Positions 3,001 through 12,662 of a DNA stretch of 64,000 nucleotides are shown here, in pieces (position 1 is the stretch's first letter; the number at the start of each line of letters is the position of its first letter). The notes below the pieces were generated by a model. It worked only from the letters and a program-made list of their open reading frames with translations. It searched no databases and was not told the DNA's origin. A program made the position numbers and the translations under genes. This DNA is from Tribonema minus. Lineage: Eukaryota > Sar > Xanthophyceae > Tribonematales > Tribonemataceae. The stretch is taken from assembly GCA_017506865.1 (NCBI GenBank), contig JAFCMP010000031.1:248001-312000 (forward strand), in the 5' to 3' direction.

Positions 3001-5501
3001 GATGCCCTGGCACATCAAAAAGACTGCTGCCTGATAGTCCAGCATACAGCACGCAGCGCTGACGGCGAAGTGAAGTGACAGGCGCACATGGTCCAATACG
3101 CAGGCAGTTCATCACGTGACACTGCCGACGACAATGGGATACATTGTAGCGCGCCCGCGCGACGAATGCGCCTGCGGGCTCACGTGCGTCGGATCGCGCG
3201 TCGGCAGTGGTGTTCCCAGCGCGTCCGCCGCCAGCGCCTCGAGCGCCGCCTCCACCGCGCGCAGCGCATCCGCATGGCCGCCGTCCGGCCAGCCGCTCGC
3301 GGCCGCGGCAAGCGCCTCCAGGCTCGCGCGCCGCCAGTCTGTCGCTGCTGCGCTGTCGCCTGGCGGCGCGGATTCACGCAGCGCCTGCGCCGCGCGCGCA
3401 GCATCGCCGGCGTCCATGGCCTCGCGTGCCGCAAAGAGCGCGGCCTCCGCCGCCAGCTGCCCGCCAGCTGAGCGCTGCCGCCCTTCGTTGGCGATTTCTT
3501 CAAGGTCCACGCCCGGCGGCGGCGCAGCGTACCAGCTGCTGCGCAGCAGCGCCGCGGCGAGCGGCGGCGCGGCGGTGACGCCCGCGCGCTGCAGCGCGGC
3601 GCAGCGCTCCGCCAGCTGCCGCCAGCTCGTGCGCTTCGCCTCGTCGCCGTGCGCGCGCGAGATCAGCGCCAGGCCCCGCGCCACATACGCCTCCGCCACC
3701 CGCGACAGCAACTCTGGCGTCAAGTGCTGCGACAGGTGCGCGGCGTCCTGAAAGAGGGCGTCCAGGTGCTGCCCCGCCGCGTCTGCGGCCGGTTCCTCAA
3801 GTGCTGCCGCTCTGGCGAGCAGCTCGAGGCGCTCTGCGGGCGCGTCTGCGTCCGTTGCAGTGGCCTCTGCGCAGGTGAGCGGTCAGAGAGGCCGTCACCA
3901 CCGGTTATCACCAGGCGGCAACATTTGAGTCTGGCGCTCACTCGGGATAAGCACGACGGACGGTTTCACATGATGTACTGCCTGTGAAAGCGCAGTGCAG
4001 AGGAAGTGTCGGCTGTGCTGTGCCTACTCCTACCTCTGCTGGCAGCATGAAGTAGTGGATGTCGAGAACTATATACGAGAGCAGATCAACAGTGGCTGAA
4101 GCGTGCACCAGTGAGCGTTTGATAAATTTGGTATGATGAGAGTGCCAGTGACATCATGCATGCACTGCTGAACATGCCGTCAGTGGCAAACTTCGCAGGG
4201 TCCTGTGTCATGATTGAGCCCTGAGCACGCTGTCGTGCCTAGGCACTGGGTGCTGCGCTGCGCATAATGCAGACAGCGGTGACCGCTGCACGATGACTCT
4301 GCGCCAAGCACACAGTGCTCACAATGATGGCAGAGGGTGTCAGCTGTACATCAAAGTTGTGACCTGAGCGGGGACTGTTAGTAAGAGGAAGCTTTACATT
4401 GATTAAAGCATTTGTGCTGAGAGTCAGCCTGAGGCAGAGTGCTGCAGCTCCATGTGTTCACTGTTCAATGATAAGGTGCTCCTTCAGTCACTCTCACGAA
4501 CCATGCAGGCTTGTTATGAACGACCCTCTGCGTTATAAACGATCGATATAACCGATGATAACGCGATTTGTTCGAAACGATCGATACAAACGAGCCGAGG
4601 TCGACCATAACCGAGTACAGCCGACTACAGCCTGCGAAATTGCGCCGAGGCCGCGGGCACGCGGCTAGCAGCGTGTAGGCCACCAACGCGCATGTGTTTT
4701 TAAAAGTCTTACACCTTTGATCATGCCCAAAAGCAGGAGTGGTATGCACCGGTTGGACCTTTTGTTCACAGGCAGTGGCCTTGGTTTGTCTCGCCCATGG
4801 TTGCCGACCTCGTGAGGAGGGATTTAACATCAATTGAGCCACCACACGGGCATGCAGGCTAGCGGGGAGCGGGGGCAGGGCAGGGCTAGCAGATGGTAGC
4901 TCGTTTGCAACGACTGAAAGGATGGAAACGATCGTTTACATCATCGTTCGTTTGCATCGATCGTTTGTCGTTCGTAACAACCCTGGAACCATGTCTCTAC
5001 TGGATAAGAAGGAGTGATGTTCGGAAAGGTTCACGCACCTGGATTGCCGATGTGCATGTTAACTGCTTTCAATGCAGCATTGGTGTTGCCCACTACATCC
5101 ATCAGCACCTGAGCGGCCTTCAGAATTAGCCCTCTGGCCCTTTGCCAGTTCTGCTTGGCCTGAGCGATGGTTGCCATCTGCAGCAGCGGCACCGGCAGCT
5201 CTGCCTCCCTCCCCGCCCCTGTCAAGCAATCCACAAGCCCTTTCCACGCCTGGGGCATGTCCGGTCGCAGCTCCGTCAAGCGCTGGTAGAACGCAGCTCC
5301 TTTACCAGGCTCAGCAGCAGCAGCTGCAGCCATTCCAGCGGTCATCAGCAGAGCGCACAGGATCTGCCGATGTGCGTCGTTGGATACATCCAAGCTCTGC
5401 TGCTGCAGTAGAGACTCACACTGCGCCAGAGCAGCCTGTGCATCTCCTGCCTGCAAGGATGTACGAGCTGCCTTGATGGCGCCTCGCACCTGAACACTCA
5501 T
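39..5501 (-). CDS. SKI3: SKI3/TTC37-like TPR protein, N-terminal part (gene runs off the left edge)
   Basis: Five exons, read on the minus strand: 5501-5039, 3866-3184, 2907-2289, 1423-1200 and 719-39, giving about 890 residues before a GAG|GTGAGC donor leads out of the window. Intron phases match at every junction (1, 0, 1, 0). The protein is a run of TPR helices, for example DAGRAHREIGQVDEAAEALD in the last exon and GAGQLEEAAAHLQQALAG in the fourth. The N-terminus (MSVQVRGAIKAARTSL, then AALAQCESLL and AWKGLVDCL) follows the opening of SKI3/TTC37, the TPR scaffold of the Ski complex that feeds RNA to the cytoplasmic exosome. The start ATG at 5501 is preceded by a CA-rich leader. The Ski3 assignment rests on the N-terminal pattern and length and is an inference; another long TPR protein is possible. 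Exons are GC-rich with Ala-rich linkers, and introns are less GC-rich. Confidence 0.72.
1336..2010. repeat. Four tandem copies of an exon 4 acceptor edge plus intron, SKI3-like gene
   Basis: The start of the fourth exon together with its acceptor and upstream intron is repeated at offsets of about 185-202 bp. The marker CATG of the exon (CATGTAGTGG in the functional copy) is at 1362, 1547, 1749 and 1946. Only the copy ending at 1423 joins the upstream exon in phase. The copy at 1547 has CAA in place of the CAG acceptor, and the two farther copies are increasingly diverged. The intron parts of the copies also align (TGATACTGGGGCGACG and CGATGCTGGGGCAACG), so the unit includes both exon and intron. 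Confidence 0.8.
4506..4985. mobile_element. Non-autonomous hAT-type element (MITE) in intron 1 of the SKI3-like gene
   Basis: A 480 bp element has long imperfect terminal inverted repeats of about 110 bp. The left end begins CAGGCTTGTTATGAACGA, and the reverse complement of the right end begins CAGGGTTGTTACGAACGA. It is flanked by a perfect 8 bp target duplication, GAACCATG, at 4498-4505 and 4986-4993. CAGGG-like termini with 8 bp duplications are typical of the hAT superfamily. The subterminal regions carry several copies of AAACGATCG. No transposase reading frame is present. Confidence 0.9.
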
Positions 5502-6280: not shown

Positions 6281-9200
6281 ATGTACCGCTGTGCTGTGCT
6301 ATTGCTACTATGCGTCGGCGCTTCTGCCTTCGTCGTCAACAATGTTCGCGTGCAGCCCCGCACCATGGCCACCAAGATGATGGCCGCTTCTTCAGAGGTA
6401 AGAGAGCTCTCACGTCTGGCGATGATCAAGCACCGCATCAGATACCCTGCTGACCCCCAGCTCCTCCCCGTTGAGCAATCTGTGCGTGCACCCAGCGGAT
6501 GATGCCGCCTGGATACCAGATCACTTTCTTGCAAAAGATACGCCATGCACCAGATTCGCAGCATCGCTTGCAATCGCATGCTTCGACTAATCGACTGTTC
6601 TCATCCAACTCCGCGCTGCTTCGCAGCCCACCGACAGGCGAGCACTTTTCAAGATCATCAGCACCACTGTGGCATCTGTGGCCGCATGCACGCAGCTGCA
6701 GACCCTGCAACCTGCCAATGCTGCCGAGACCGCCACCAAGCTCACCGCTGACGAGGTCAACTCAGTGCGTGAGGCAGTGTCCAAGATAGTGAACTCGGAT
6801 CTTAACAAGGTGCGCCAAAGATACACGAGCAGAGCATTGCCTGTGCGGCCTGCAGCGTTCTTGCTGTCGGCCTTCCTCTGTCAGATGCTGTCAACCGGCA
6901 TCTTGCCTGGTACGTGCGGCGAAGGATGTCATGGCGTCATTTCCGATGTGACCTCAGTGCCGCGCTGCTCAGTCAGGCTGCAACGTGATGCTGGATGGGA
7001 GCTCTTGGCGAGAAGAGGTGCATATCAAGTGTGCACACATAAGTCTTTTGACTACTGTGGATATAATGGCACCGTTTGACGCATGGCCAATGACTGCAGC
7101 AGCGGCGACAACGGTTATTGGTGGAAGGCACTTGCGGCTGACCATTCCTTGTCACCTAGAGCTCTACGATCTTTTGATTCGTTTTCATATTACATAGGCA
7201 CACATGGGGGGTGCGTCACAGAAGGGCTGCTCAGAGGGCGTGCCAGAAGGCGGCTGCCGCAAAAGCACACACACTCACAGTGGCGTTTAGCCATGCTGAA
7301 GTCGTGCTGACTGCAGAACTTGTCCCCGCGCATTCAACGCTTATGAATTTGATTTCTGCACATCACAGCGCTCAGGCGAGCCCAATGCTGGCTGTGCGTT
7401 TGTCGAAGTTCATGTGGCATGCGTCTGCTGCGCCTGCAGGGGCCTACCCTGGTGAGACTGGCGTGGCACTGCTCGGGGACGTATGACAAAGTCACCAAAA
7501 CAGGAGGCAGCGGCGGCGGTACTATCCGCTTCAAGGTGAGGCCAAAGTGTGAGCGTTCGGGCATACCTTTTCTGGAAGTACTTGGGTGGTGTGAGCGCTG
7601 TAGGTGCAACGTCCAGGAGGCGGTGTGAAGCACTTGGGCAGGCAGTCACGATGGACGAGTGTGAGGTCTGCTGGAAATCCCTTGCTGCAGTGCTCCGCAG
7701 CATGTGCTTTGCATCGCGTCGTTTGAAAGTGTGTGAAGCATGGCAGACCCAGCAAATCTGCGAGGTTTGTGAATGCGATGTTCGTCCTATCCCTAAGCAG
7801 CTTTGCGGCGCGCCACGCAATGATGGAACCCACCCACTGGTGCATTTCAGCGGCACGTCATCACTTGCACTATGCACGGTGCCTGCGGCGACGCGTCTCG
7901 CACGCAGCGCGCGCGCAGGAGCGTAGCTGTCCTGCCGCCGTCGTTGCCGCCAGCGATGGCTAGCTCATGCGCGCGAGGACTCGGCACCGTCACGCCTGCG
8001 GTAGCGCACATGACCCACAACGGTTGCGCGCAGGGAAAGCATGGCGTCAGGGTGCGCATGCACCTGTGCAGGCCCGGTGGCACGTAAATGCTGACATTAA
8101 CTCCATTGTGAGCACGCACGATGAAGTGCTTTGTGGCGGGGTATGCGTACACATGCTCTAATCACCATCAGCCGCTGTACAGGGCAACGCTCGACCAACT
8201 GCAGGAGGCCCGCCACGCCACTCACGATTGCACTGCGTGTATTGCTGCCGCTGCTGCTGCTGCTGCCGCCACCGCCGCCGCTGCCGCTGCCGCCGCCACT
8301 GCCGCTGCCGCCGCCGCCGCTGCCGCCGCCGCCGCCGCGCCGCGCAGTCGGAGCTCGCGCACGGCGCCAACGCGGGCCTGGCGAAGGCGGTGGAGTGGCT
8401 GGAGCCCATCAAGACGGCGCACCCCAACGTGTCCTACGGCGACCTGTACACGCTCGCCGGCGTGCAGGCCATCTACGCCATGGCCGGGCCCCAGGTGCGG
8501 ACGCCGCTGCGCATCTGCTGCAACTGCTGTGTAGTAATTCACTTTGGGTGTCGCTGCGGCGCGGGAAGCGCCTGTGGGGCGTTGCTCGTAAAGGAGCGGT
8601 TGGCAGTATATAGTCGGTGAAGGCGACGAGTGTGGGTGGCTGCTGCGTCGGCGCCGTGACGGCGTCACGCGGGAACGGACATCGCGACAGGCAAGCATGT
8701 CCAGTGTAGGTATGGGTATGGATGCGCGTGACGCGCAAGGGCGCAATCTCGTCGCAGTGACGTGATGACAGCCTGCTGCATGGCTGACTGTCAAGCACAC
8801 GCCATGGACAAGTCGGCGTGCATGCTGCGAGAGTGCCACAGGCGTAATCAGAAGGGGGCCCTGCGTCTGGCTGAGTGGGCCGTGACGCGGTGACTTGCGA
8901 GCGATGCATGGTGCGCTCAGCGGCCGCAAGGTAACGTCTAGGTACATGTCAGACACCACATTGCTGCACCATCGTTTGTGCGTCGGTCGATGGCGTGCAC
9001 CCTGCGCGGAGTAGTTGCTGCGCCGGCTGATTGACATGATTGCTGGCGCCCGCTCCGCTGCATCAACAGGCATGCGATGGCGTGTTTCACATCTGATTGG
9101 CTCTGTGTGGCACGCTGGTGCCGACAACTCTCGGACCACCAAGTGGCGCACACTTCAGACGGCACGTGATCCTGATGACCACGCATGCATGTGTGCTCTT

Positions 9201-12200
9201 GTGGCATGCCAAATGCTCGACGCACGCGACGGTCGCTGCTGATGCAATCTCGGTGACGGCGCGCGCATTTCATGGCCGCGCACAAGTCCGCCACGTTCGT
9301 GTCAGCGCTGCTCGCTGCCTCAGGTCCCCACTACTTCGCACACTCAGTACCTACACAGTCCCCCACACCAAGCAGCCGCCGCTGCTGCCGCCGCGCCGCC
9401 CGCCGCCGCGCGCAGCGCCCTCTCTGCATTCTTGTATACGCGGCAGAGCACTGCTGACTGCCGCGTGCTGCTCGCTGCCGCCGCAGATCCCGTGGCGCGC
9501 GGGCCGCGTGGACGCGGACGAGTCCACGGTTACGCCCGGCGACCGCCTGCCCGACGCCGACAAGGGCGACCCCATGCGCACCGCGGCGGGGCTGCGCGCG
9601 ACCTTCAACCGCATGGGCTTCAACGACCAGGAGATCGTCGCGCTCTCGGGCGCGCACGCGCTCGGTGAGGCGCGCGCCGCGGTGATGACGATGACGTCGT
9701 GAAGCGCACGGTGATTAGGTCGTGCGTACTCGCATGATGTCAGGTGCTTGGACGGTGTGGACGGCAGGCTGCGCCGCTGAGGGTGTGTGGGAGCGCGGGG
9801 GCGAGGCTGTTCTGAAGCTCTCAGCAGCATACACAAGGAAAAGGGGGTGCTGTGACTGGTAATGCTACACGCGGCGCTCTGGCGAGAGCACAGCGAGCTT
9901 TCGCGCGTTGACCGCCTCAACATTGCTGTGCTGTCGGCTGCGCGCGCCTTTGGACGCCGCGCCTCTTGCGCCGCCAGCTGCATCACACGAAGCAGCATCG
10001 AGTACCCTTACCACCGCTTGCTGCATACTCAGGGGGCACTGCGATGCAGAACAACGAACACAGTGCCATGCATGCGCATGGCTGCAGCGCCCTTCCTGCT
10101 GTTCAGCGCGCACGCCCCGGTCAGTGAGCACTGTTCAACGCATTCCACTGCATCACGCTACCGTATAGAGAAGGCAGCACAAGTGCGGCGCCCGCAAAGT
10201 TCAACCGCTCATAGCCTGGTGTTCAGGCGTTGACGTGCGCCGTCGCTCACCCTTGCCGCACCCGCTGGCCGCCATACCCCCTCAGGGCGCTGCCACCGCA
10301 ACAACAGCGGCTACGAAGGGCCCTGGACGCCCACTCCCACCAAGTGAGTACGACTGCGAGAGCTGGCTGGCAGCTGCTGTGCATGTGTACCAGAAACCCG
10401 TTCTAGCCCTCCGCTGCCGTTCGTCTTAAACATGAGTGCGATTCCTGGTGCAGACTTTGCGGGTATGAAGCGCGCATATATGCAGGTATGGCTCAGTGCC
10501 GTCTCATCACTAATTACCTAGACTGCGAGGGGGGCCGCCATTGTTGTGCGCTCACAGCGTCTTGTTAGCTGCTCCGTGCTTGAGCGGCACGTGCACATTG
10601 GCGCATGATCCTGGCATGGGTTCACGCAACTCGCTTGTCATCGCCAGTGCTCTGCTGCAAGACGGGTTCTTCGCTGGTCGCTGCTGCGGCTGCTCTTTCT
10701 CGCACTTGCAGTCGTCTGGGAACGGCGCGACGCTTGCCGTGAAGGGCATGGCACTCACATCAAGAAGTGCGCGCAGCTTGCCGCTGCTGCAAGATTGGCG
10801 CTGCCGATCGCTGCTGCTCCTGTTGCATGCAGCGCTCGACTGACTGACTGACTGCTGATCGCTGACGGCTGACGGGACAACAACACAGCGACAACCACAC
10901 AACACCAACAACAACATGTACGCCTGGCTTGTTGAACTTGCGCAGCTTCAACAACCTGTACTTCAAGCTGCTCAAGAACGTCAACTGGACGCCCAAGAAC
11001 TGGGACGGCAAGCCGCAGTTTGAGAACGAGGACGGGCGCCTCATGATGCTCCCCAGGTGAGCGCTGCTGCTGCCTGAGCACTGCTGCATGTGGCACAATA
11101 CCTACCTTCCTTTTGAGCCCAGATCGGTGACCGAACTCGCAATTGCACCGACCTCGCAATTGCACCACAGGAAAATTTGCAGCTAAGCCGCGCCCGAAAT
11201 GGCTGCACTATAATGTTGTGCCTCCATTAAGAAGCAAAGGCGCTTCCCTGAAACTGCGCGACCCACAACCCTAATGCTAATGGCGCTGCCGCCGCCATCC
11301 GCACAGGGGTTGCTGCCAACGGCTGCCATGAGTTCGGTTTAGTTTTGTTGGCGGCCTGAAGCTGAGCCTTTCAATATGAAAACATGTATAGAGCGGCTGC
11401 TCCTCTCTGTGCGCAATGCTGCTGCCGTTGAAAGCGGCAGTAGAGGTTAGAAACGGAATGTTCAGGGGCCTGCGTTTCGTGTTCCGTGTTTCGACCCCGC
11501 GGGCATTCCGTTTCCGTTTCGTTTTCCGTGTTAACCGGAACACGGAACACGGAAAACAGAACCGTGTTTCGTTCCGTTTTGGTGGCGTTTTGAGCCTGAC
11601 AGTGTGCAGCCGTGCCATTGCCCACCACGACATGCACAAATGCTGCTAACACTATGGTCCTGCTTAACCCCATTGGCCGGGCAAGCAAGGAGAAATAGGT
11701 TGCAACTACATGGCATGTCGTACATGATGTCGTCTTATCCGATACAATGGACTCTGTCCAGCATTTGCGGCACAGTACGGCAGTAAAACGGGGGGTGACC
11801 GCGCATTTGAGACAGCTGGTTGCAGGGCGACTGACAAGTACGGGACGCCGTGACAAGCAGTCTCAGGGCATAGGCGTTAGTTGTAGGATGTGTTCCAAGA
11901 CCATGCTTTGCGAAACGAACCTCAACTTTCACTTGAACTTGTTACCGCGGAGGTTTGGGCATGGTCAAGCAGTTAGAGCAAAGGCCTGAATCATCGCCAT
12001 GCTGCACAATGTGCAGTGCATCCACCAGAACAGACGACTGGCACCACACAAGCACGCAAACGCGGCTAAACCCGCATAAAACGGAACTGTTTTTCCGTGT
12101 TCCGTTTCCGTGTTTCGGTCCGTTTAAACACGGTTCAAACACGGTTTCCCTGGAAAATTTCCGTTTCGTTTTTCAGTTTTTAATATTCACTTTCAGAACG

Positions 12201-12662
12201 TGATATTTTGAATATGTCATGTGAGCATGCTAGTGGACCTGCAGAGGTATCCGTGTCCTATGTTAAACGGAATTTTTATTCTGTTTTCCGTTTCGGTTCC
12301 GTTCCGTTTCTAACCTCTAAGCGGCAGGGCCACGTCGCCTCAAACGCCACCGTGCTGACACAACCCGCGTCGCTCTGACAGACTCCACTACACAATGGGC
12401 AGATTGCGTGGACCTCATGACTTGCATCAGAGACTGAACAATACATGTCAAAGTATGGTACTCTGCAGCGTTGTTGATGCGCCATCCTACTTGTGCTGCC
12501 ACCGCTGCGGCGCACAGTGACATCGTGCTGCTCCAGGACAAGGAGTTCAAGAAGTGGGTCGACGTCTACGCCAGCAGCGAGCGCAAGTTCTTTGAGGACT
12601 TCTCCAAGGCCTTCAGCAAGCTCGAGGAGCTCGGCACAGACAGCTCCCTCTATACCGTTTAG
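6281..12662 (+). CDS. Class I haem peroxidase (APX/CCP type) with plastid and thylakoid-lumen targeting
   Basis: Eight exons: 6281-6397, 6627-6809, 7440-7535, 8348-8494, 9487-9664, 10286-10343, 10946-11056 and 12518-12662. They join in phase to 344 residues. Residues 1-39 are a signal peptide plus ASAF motif (CVGASAFVV). Exon 2 opens with DRRALFK, a hydrophobic stretch and PANAAE (residues 42-73), a Tat-like lumen signal. Catalytic residues are present: distal R106, W109, H110; proximal H238; W254; D298. The residue equivalent to Arg172 of pea APX, which binds ascorbate, is Asn (N247), and Lys30/Cys32 are also not kept. The spacing from the proximal-side Trp to the Asp is 44 residues, as in yeast cytochrome c peroxidase (191 to 235), not 29 as in APX. 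The C-terminus ([17 protein letters not shown]) also resembles CCP. The protein removes H2O2; the electron donor is open. Plastid import is well supported, while lumen location is inferred. Confidence 0.9.
11441..12319. mobile_element. Second hAT-like element, in the last intron of the peroxidase gene
   Basis: The element is 879 bp with terminal inverted repeats TAGAGGTTAGAAACGG on the left and CCGTTTCTAACCTCTA on the right, flanked by a perfect 8 bp duplication AGCGGCAG at 11433-11440 and 12320-12327. TAGAG termini and 8 bp duplications fit hAT. Subterminal regions contain many short CCGTGTT/AACACGG and TTCCGTTTC repeats in both orientations. No transposase motif was recognised inside, so it is probably non-autonomous. 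It is unrelated in sequence to the element at 4506. Confidence 0.88.

Follow-up and report, generated by a model that had tools for sequence, protein, structure and literature searches.

What would a class I haem peroxidase do behind a leader that appears to address it to the thylakoid lumen, and which molecule would supply its electrons? These questions are raised by a gene of the xanthophyte alga Tribonema minus, located at positions 6281-12662 on the plus strand of a 64,000-nucleotide (nt) stretch of contig JAFCMP010000031.1 (positions 248,001 to 312,000, assembly GCA_017506865.1; hereafter referred to as the window). The encoded protein combines the residue set of a cytochrome c peroxidase (CCP) with a plastid leader containing a twin-arginine (RR) segment of the kind associated with the twin-arginine translocation (Tat) pathway. 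Judged from the sequence, the gene is real, the CCP-type enzyme is intact and the case for the lumen is good. We consider it probable that a CCP-type peroxidase is targeted to the lumen, whatever its donor, and hold the fuller reading, in which this enzyme draws its electrons from cytochrome c6, at just short of an even chance.

The gene, first outlined by eye and then defined by splice-aware alignment, comprises eight exons, and all seven introns have GT-AG ends. The joined coding sequence of 1035 nt encodes 344 amino acids followed by a stop codon, and a Pfam search found a single domain, PF00141, at residues 86-316 (E = 5.3e-46). Exon 1 (6281..6397; 39 residues, phase 0 donor) contributes the beginning of the leader. 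Exon 2 (6627..6809) contains no Met, so that translation must start upstream, and exon 1 may be the sole first exon. The peroxidase domain begins with a first helix at the end of exon 2 and continues through exon 3 (7440..7535), which carries the RLAWH motif of the distal haem side (R106, W109 and H110), exon 4 (8348..8494), exon 5 (9487..9664), which contains a DADKGD..RT insertion and the proximal His238 and has GAHAL at its end, exon 6 (10286..10343; Asn247 and Trp254), exon 7 (10946..11056; a loop followed by LMMLP) and exon 8 (12518..12662), which completes a split Ser codon, contains Asp298 and reaches the stop codon.

In an alignment of 12 rows, the distal R106, W109 and H110 and the proximal H238, W254 and D298 are all present, as stated in the original prediction, which had been made from the letters of the window. 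Together with the PF00141 match, these residues identify a class I peroxidase. Asn247 occupies position 172 of pea ascorbate peroxidase (APX), equivalent to position 184 of yeast CCP, and the Arg172 that marks an APX is thus replaced, again as foreseen. Trp254 corresponds to Trp191 of yeast CCP, and Met293 and Met294 (in the LMMLP of exon 7) correspond to its Met230 and Met231, while Asp298 corresponds to its Asp235. Among the four positions that we take to be ligands of the proximal cation site (Thr164, Thr180, Asn182 and Asp187), Thr180 alone is kept, the other three being Ala, Thr and Asn, respectively. We assume that Trp191, Met230/Met231 and the lack of a proximal cation site together distinguish a CCP, and the window protein has the equivalents of these residues and has lost the site. 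Part of this residue set is also given in PMC9358470.

A search of the Protein Data Bank (PDB) matched 232 sequences, the best 60 of which are all labelled as CCPs (yeast entries and variants) or a CCP fusion. The top three include 1jci and 1cck, which are presumably CCPs engineered with a cation site. The window protein also departs from the plastid relatives of the class: it has Trp109 rather than the Phe41 of APX-R proteins, lacks MxxM and MxxH in its mature part, and keeps every catalytic residue, the loss of which characterizes APX-L/TL29. The usual, although not defining, mitochondrial leader of CCPs is replaced by a signal peptide and an RR segment. It most likely reacts as a CCP does, and we file it as CCP-type by sequence, short of a proven cytochrome c peroxidase.

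These results modify the earlier view of the protein as an APX that had lost its ascorbate site. An APX ancestor is unsupported, given the CCP labels of the best 60 of 232 PDB matches and the two mitochondrial-type CCPs that are, with weak support, the nearest rows in the tree described below. Two further features had been cited with that view. The Lys30/Cys32 equivalents are indeed missing, their positions being Leu and Lys, but this absence is not diagnostic, because Lys30 is also absent from all three APX-type genes of the same genome and Cys32 from one of the three. The distance from W254 to D298 is 44 residues, as had been counted, but is not specific to CCPs: in the seven of 12 alignment rows in which it can be measured (the remaining five are partial), it is 44-46 throughout, with 44 in the window protein, 46 and 44 in the genome's own CCP-type proteins L013 and L014, 44 in yeast CCP, 45 in LmP and 44 in each of two Arg172-bearing planctomycete proteins, L021 and L022. 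This spacing is common to CCPs and hybrids, and we rejected it as a marker of the former.

Which compartment does the leader specify? Its elements follow one another as a signal peptide, an ASA|F cleavage site at codons 14-17 (6320-6331) and a basic transit peptide, all in exon 1, and then, in exon 2, RR (6636-6641), a hydrophobic stretch and a terminal ANA, placing the mature start at about 6723, at Ala72. Both the ASAF-type plastid leader and the RR-hydrophobic-ANA segment opening exon 2 had been proposed earlier, and both were borne out. By reading, the window peroxidase contains the complete pattern of a Tat lumen leader (plastid leader, RR, hydrophobic stretch and AxA).

For comparison, we read the leaders of other genes of this genome as controls, with leader-to-domain joins taken from open reading frames (ORFs) and splice-site-like ends. 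The two PsbO leaders (GGASAF ... AAPAQA) are two-step without RR. Two-step leaders with RR occur in the PsbP-family gene L031 (MKTAAAWTALLSATACTCSHAF...ATRRTFVTDAVSAASAIAIAAAVPAVASA) and in HCF136, in which MAPSPLVLAVSVLLASTACDAF... lies in one exon and ESRRDFFKSSSALVGGAAAVAGLAGVTAPSAAEAA, with an AEA end, in the following exon; the TL29-like gene L012 has the same two-step RR type as the window gene. The signal peptides of PsbO, HCF136, L031, L012 and the APX-type gene L011 end in A/G-F, like that of exon 1. L011 carries the first targeting step only, with MRASTAGLAVALSLMAPGYAF and a transit peptide in an exon closing at a GT donor, and a scan of three frames from this donor up to the first core exon revealed no RR segment. 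Among the three PsbP-family genes scanned, L031 alone has a complete leader: in L032 an RR piece stands with no signal peptide before it and may not be a leader, and in L033 a signal peptide is not followed by any credible RR segment. The hydrophobicity of the exon-2 segment is 1.67, versus 2.03 in PsbO. PMC3813922 counts both HCF136 and TL29 among the Tat substrates. On sequence, the control leaders give good support to the predicted thylakoid-lumen targeting, and Tat import of the window peroxidase into the lumen is the natural reading. The best PDB match of PsbO is 8iwh (401 bits), which, like the PsbO matches that follow it, we take to be a diatom protein; on this basis, the alga probably has a secondary, red-lineage plastid.

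The two CCP paralogues begin differently, with MLGNIARCTLAQAARSGTSNFIRHARGLSSRAE in L013 and MLGTAMRRAAVVGMRTGATSVRSFSARAE in L014, and in each a hydrophobic exon comes next. Judged by eye, these leaders appear to be mitochondrial presequences followed by a sorting signal, an arrangement presumably the same as in yeast CCP. We aligned the exon-2 leader locally against the other leaders, with 2000 shuffles for each comparison. None of the 2000 shuffles scored as well against HCF136, and 8 of 2000 did so with the RR masked. Against the mitochondrial-type leaders of L013 and L014, by contrast, 1499-1506 and 641-661 of 2000 shuffles, respectively, were as good over two runs. The exon-2 leader is clearly like that of HCF136, and is not like the mitochondrial-type leaders. 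We also considered a route in which the mitochondrial exon alone was swapped and the segment for sorting to the intermembrane space was reused as a lumen signal, and rejected it, the segments being no more alike than shuffles.

The window is nuclear DNA, and the genome (an assembly of 158 Mb in 554 contigs) yielded 18 exon matches to the PF00141 profile at eight loci, including that of the window. Assigned by eye, these are one KatG-like locus (L009), three APX-type loci with Arg at position 172 (L010, L011 and L015), three CCP-type loci (L013, L014 and the window gene) and one TL29-like locus (L012); the models of L009, L010, L011, L012 and L015 are partial, with unreliable C-terminal parts, and that of L014 extends beyond its locus. 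A single APX isoform is given for algae in PMC10640588. The highest identity of the window protein in the 12-row set is 53%, to L013. In the tree of these rows, the window protein, yeast CCP, L013 and L014 fall on one side, with weak support (37/86), and the deep branches, including the order of APX, CCP and hybrid types, are unsettled. An insertion, DADK[GQ]D..[KR]T, is common to the window protein, L013 and L014 and is missing from the yeast CCP, LmP, planctomycete and sorghum rows; at this place, the algal APX rows carry different insertions. By eye, no core intron of the window gene is co-located with one of L013 or L014, the positions of one pair differing by just 2 nt. The window peroxidase thus appears nearest, with weak support, to the genome's own mitochondrial-type CCPs. 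That a copy of such a CCP was given a Tat lumen leader and became a lumenal cytochrome c6 peroxidase is a possibility that we hold tentatively, at somewhat below an even chance.

Relatives were also sought beyond the alga. Among bacterial and archaeal genomes, 16 stretches matched the search pattern and two proved to be relatives, both from planctomycetes; among viral contigs, 12 stretches fitted it and none was a relative. The two planctomycete proteins, L021 from Adhaeretor mobilis and L022 from a metagenome-assembled genome, are class I peroxidases whose identity to the core of the window protein is 50% and 46%, respectively, with Arg at position 172, the 44-residue spacing and, by eye, an ankyrin-like C-terminal extension.

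What could donate electrons in the lumen? In diatoms, cytochrome c6 carries electrons between cytochrome b6f and photosystem I (PMC10669542). The T. minus assembly contains two pieces resembling petJ, namely L019 (G000:C69:106175-106243; 23 residues, 78% identity), which lies among apparent protein kinase exons (by eye), and L020 (G000:C61:134745-134825; 27 residues, 63% identity). Both are AT-rich islands (GC content of 0.45 in C69 and 0.43 in C61) in GC-rich nuclear contigs, and their third codon positions are G or C in 9 of 23 codons (C69) and in 4 of the 21 counted among 27 codons (C61), versus a fraction of 0.86 in the window coding sequence. Given these plastid-like third positions and the AT-richness, we regard the pieces as probably plastid DNA that has been copied into the nucleus, and petJ itself is presumably encoded in the plastid. 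The scraps suggest that cytochrome c6 exists in this alga, and cytochrome c6 is a plausible donor. The cytochrome c6 and plastocyanin families gave no matches at E 0.001 in an exon-by-exon search, which would miss split genes, and PF00034 gave a single match (E = 0.83) in simple repeats, mitochondrial cytochrome c being missed as well. The hybrid peroxidase TcAPx-CcP, with Asn at the Arg172 position and without Lys30, prefers cytochrome c over ascorbate (PMC9358470).

On the reading that we favour, the window peroxidase would enter the complex plastid by the signal-peptide route and, once folded, would be carried by Tat into the thylakoid lumen, where R106 and H110 would split H2O2. Compound I would be held as an oxyferryl haem and a Trp254 radical, the cation site that would discourage this radical having been lost. 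Two electrons would then reach the Trp254 face, one by one, from a reduced protein carrier, the candidate for which in the lumen is cytochrome c6. If this is true, electrons carried by cytochrome c6 from cytochrome b6f would be diverted to H2O2 rather than photosystem I. This would provide a sink for peroxide at the donor side of photosystem I and, with it, an electron valve that requires neither ascorbate nor NADPH. A lumenal CCP would let algae that rely on cytochrome c6 clear lumenal H2O2 via a carrier already present, and how the lumen deals with peroxide could be tested directly with a single recombinant protein and a single cytochrome.

Several findings weigh against this reading. The leader comparisons are uneven: the result for the PsbP gene L031 depends on the stretch picked, with 31 of 2000 shuffles as good over 25 residues but 1938 of 2000 over 16 residues, and 576, 1599 and 183 of 2000 shuffles matched the score of the exon-2 leader against L012, L032 and PsbO, respectively. 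The searches of the assembly found no intact petJ. The stretch preceding RLAWH in the window protein contains no acidic docking loop of the yeast type, the letters of the yeast loop, which lies outside the 12-row alignment, being those that we assume. Yeast CCP docks cytochrome c through Asp34, Glu35, Asp37 and Glu290 (PMC9358470). The net charge of the window core (0) is near those of its paralogues (−1 in L013 and −3 in L014; −8 in yeast CCP and −3 in LmP), a shift in the right direction and too small to argue from; against three algal cytochromes c6 with charges of −5, −5 and −6, this net-charge comparison of cores did not reveal a basic patch fitting an acidic partner. TcAPx-CcP still oxidises ascorbate, which means that a protein lacking Arg172 may nevertheless use this substrate (PMC9358470). 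Finally, the CCP grouping is weakly supported in the tree (37/86).

Some of these points would suit a lumenal CCP-type peroxidase that takes electrons from a small molecule, such as lumenal ascorbate or phenolics, at an unspecific site. TcAPx-CcP shows that ascorbate can be oxidised without Arg172 and Lys30, APX-R proteins use guaiacol, not ascorbate, in vitro, and the yeast-type docking acids are missing from the window protein; set against this, Arg172 is absent and Trp254, Met293 and Met294 form the CCP set, and we regard a small-molecule reductant as unlikely, although worth serious consideration. A different possibility is that both known lumenal relatives of class I, having drifted from ascorbate peroxidation, indicate the fate of the window protein as well, which would then be a non-enzymatic scaffold or metal-handling factor, in line with proposals for TL29 or APX-R. 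The catalytic residues are all kept, unlike those of TL29, and Trp109 is kept in a mature part free of MxxM and MxxH, unlike in APX-R; such a role is highly improbable.

Two alternatives concern location rather than chemistry. CCPs are mostly mitochondrial, and the closest two paralogues also have a presequence and a hydrophobic segment in two exons joined at phase 0, so the leader might have been misread and the protein might be mitochondrial like them, or shared between organelles. We find this very unlikely, as exon 1 encodes a signal peptide with ASAF rather than a basic presequence, exon 2 lacks a Met, and the hydrophobic segment matches the mitochondrial-type ones no better than shuffles do (up to 1506 and 661 of 2000). 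It is also rather improbable that the RR segment stays uncleaved and anchors the protein in the thylakoid, perhaps facing the stroma. Cleavage after ANA is a reading of the letters, and the lower hydrophobicity of the segment relative to PsbO, expected for a Tat substrate, leaves release unproven; nevertheless, ANA obeys the AxA rule, and HCF136 of the same genome ends alike, in AEA. A lumenal, cytochrome c6-dependent CCP is the reading that we retain.

Two neighbouring features complete the locus. Intron 7 contains an element (11441..12319) with 18-bp perfect terminal inverted repeats (TAGAGGTTAGAAACGGAA), flanked by an 8-bp target duplication (AGCGGCAG) at 11433-11440 and 12320-12327, which on the basis of these repeats and this duplication we take to be hAT-like; it has no part in peroxidase function. 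Divergent to the peroxidase gene is a minus-strand ORF (5031-5501) that begins MSVQVRGAIKAARTSL and has a weak TPR match slightly below the Pfam cut-off.

Elsewhere in the genome, L012 (G000:C8, minus strand; reverse-complement coordinates 1412 to about 3145) is another class I protein predicted to be lumenal. It has the leader MALSKTLAVVCAIGSPAAGFVSP...SDRRDFLAASALALATLVPTASEA, its distal RLAWH is changed to KLAIS, and its best PDB match is TL29 (3rrw, E = 7.5e-9), followed by sorghum APX (4.3e-8). A TL29/APX-L-like protein is unexpected in a red-lineage alga, because the origin of APX-L has been proposed to lie in a charophyte/streptophyte ancestor (PMC8069737).

How new would the window enzyme be? 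The original prediction had been made with no knowledge of a described enzyme of this kind, which, within the texts searched, holds for a CCP type in the lumen but not for lumenal class I proteins generally, as exemplified by TL29 (PMC3813922, PMC8069737) and, by prediction, Chlamydomonas APX2 (PMC10669542). In the excerpts of open-licence full texts, with subscription journals and algal sequence databases outside the search, we found no report of a lumenal, catalytically competent CCP-type peroxidase. Hybrid-type A peroxidases are mostly non-secretory, with a Bigelowiella paralogue thought to be secreted (PMC4232752), and Symbiodinium has a hybrid peroxidase with a signal peptide (PMC4416395). 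Both may be plastid-bound, in which case plastid CCP-like enzymes may extend beyond the window gene. One Chlamydomonas chloroplast APX is annotated as a putative ascorbate-cytochrome c peroxidase (PMC3095285), and for the CCP of Ectocarpus the expected location is the mitochondrial intermembrane space (PMC3097184). What appears new is thus a predicted lumenal cytochrome c peroxidase, lumenal relatives of class I being already known in TL29 and, by prediction, in Chlamydomonas APX2.

Among the closest known systems, the window peroxidase resembles yeast CCP, L013 and L014 in its catalytic residues, the Trp191 and Met230/231 equivalents, the absence of Arg172 and a spacing of 44-46 residues, whereas they have mitochondrial leaders in place of its plastid-lumen leader, and it lacks the acidic docking loop that we assume for yeast. 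With TcAPx-CcP it shares Asn at the Arg172 position, and the Trp radical proposed here has a counterpart in that enzyme (PMC9358470); LmP is similar in spacing (45) but retains Thr164 and Asp187. TcAPx-CcP is located in the endoplasmic reticulum, mitochondria and plasma membrane, and LmP is mitochondrial (PMC9358470). The stromal-type algal APXs (L011 and Galdieria 1iyn) are also of class I, and L011 has a signal and a transit peptide, but they have Arg at position 172 and L011 has no RR segment. TL29/APX-L shares the class I fold and is Tat-imported into the lumen, where it is inactive (PMC8069737, PMC3813922), having lost its catalytic residues; the counterpart of TL29 in this genome is L012, rather than the window gene. 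Chlamydomonas APX2, an APX-R protein, is likewise of class I and chloroplastic, with a Tat motif, predicted import to the lumen and activity with guaiacol instead of ascorbate, and no natural donor has been reported for it (PMC10669542, PMC11496181); diatom APX-R lacks the Tat motif, according to the same work on APX2. APX-R proteins have Phe41 (PMC8069737) and mostly MxxM/MxxH (PMC11496181), whereas the window protein has Trp109 and neither motif, and APX2 is tied to plastocyanin copper.

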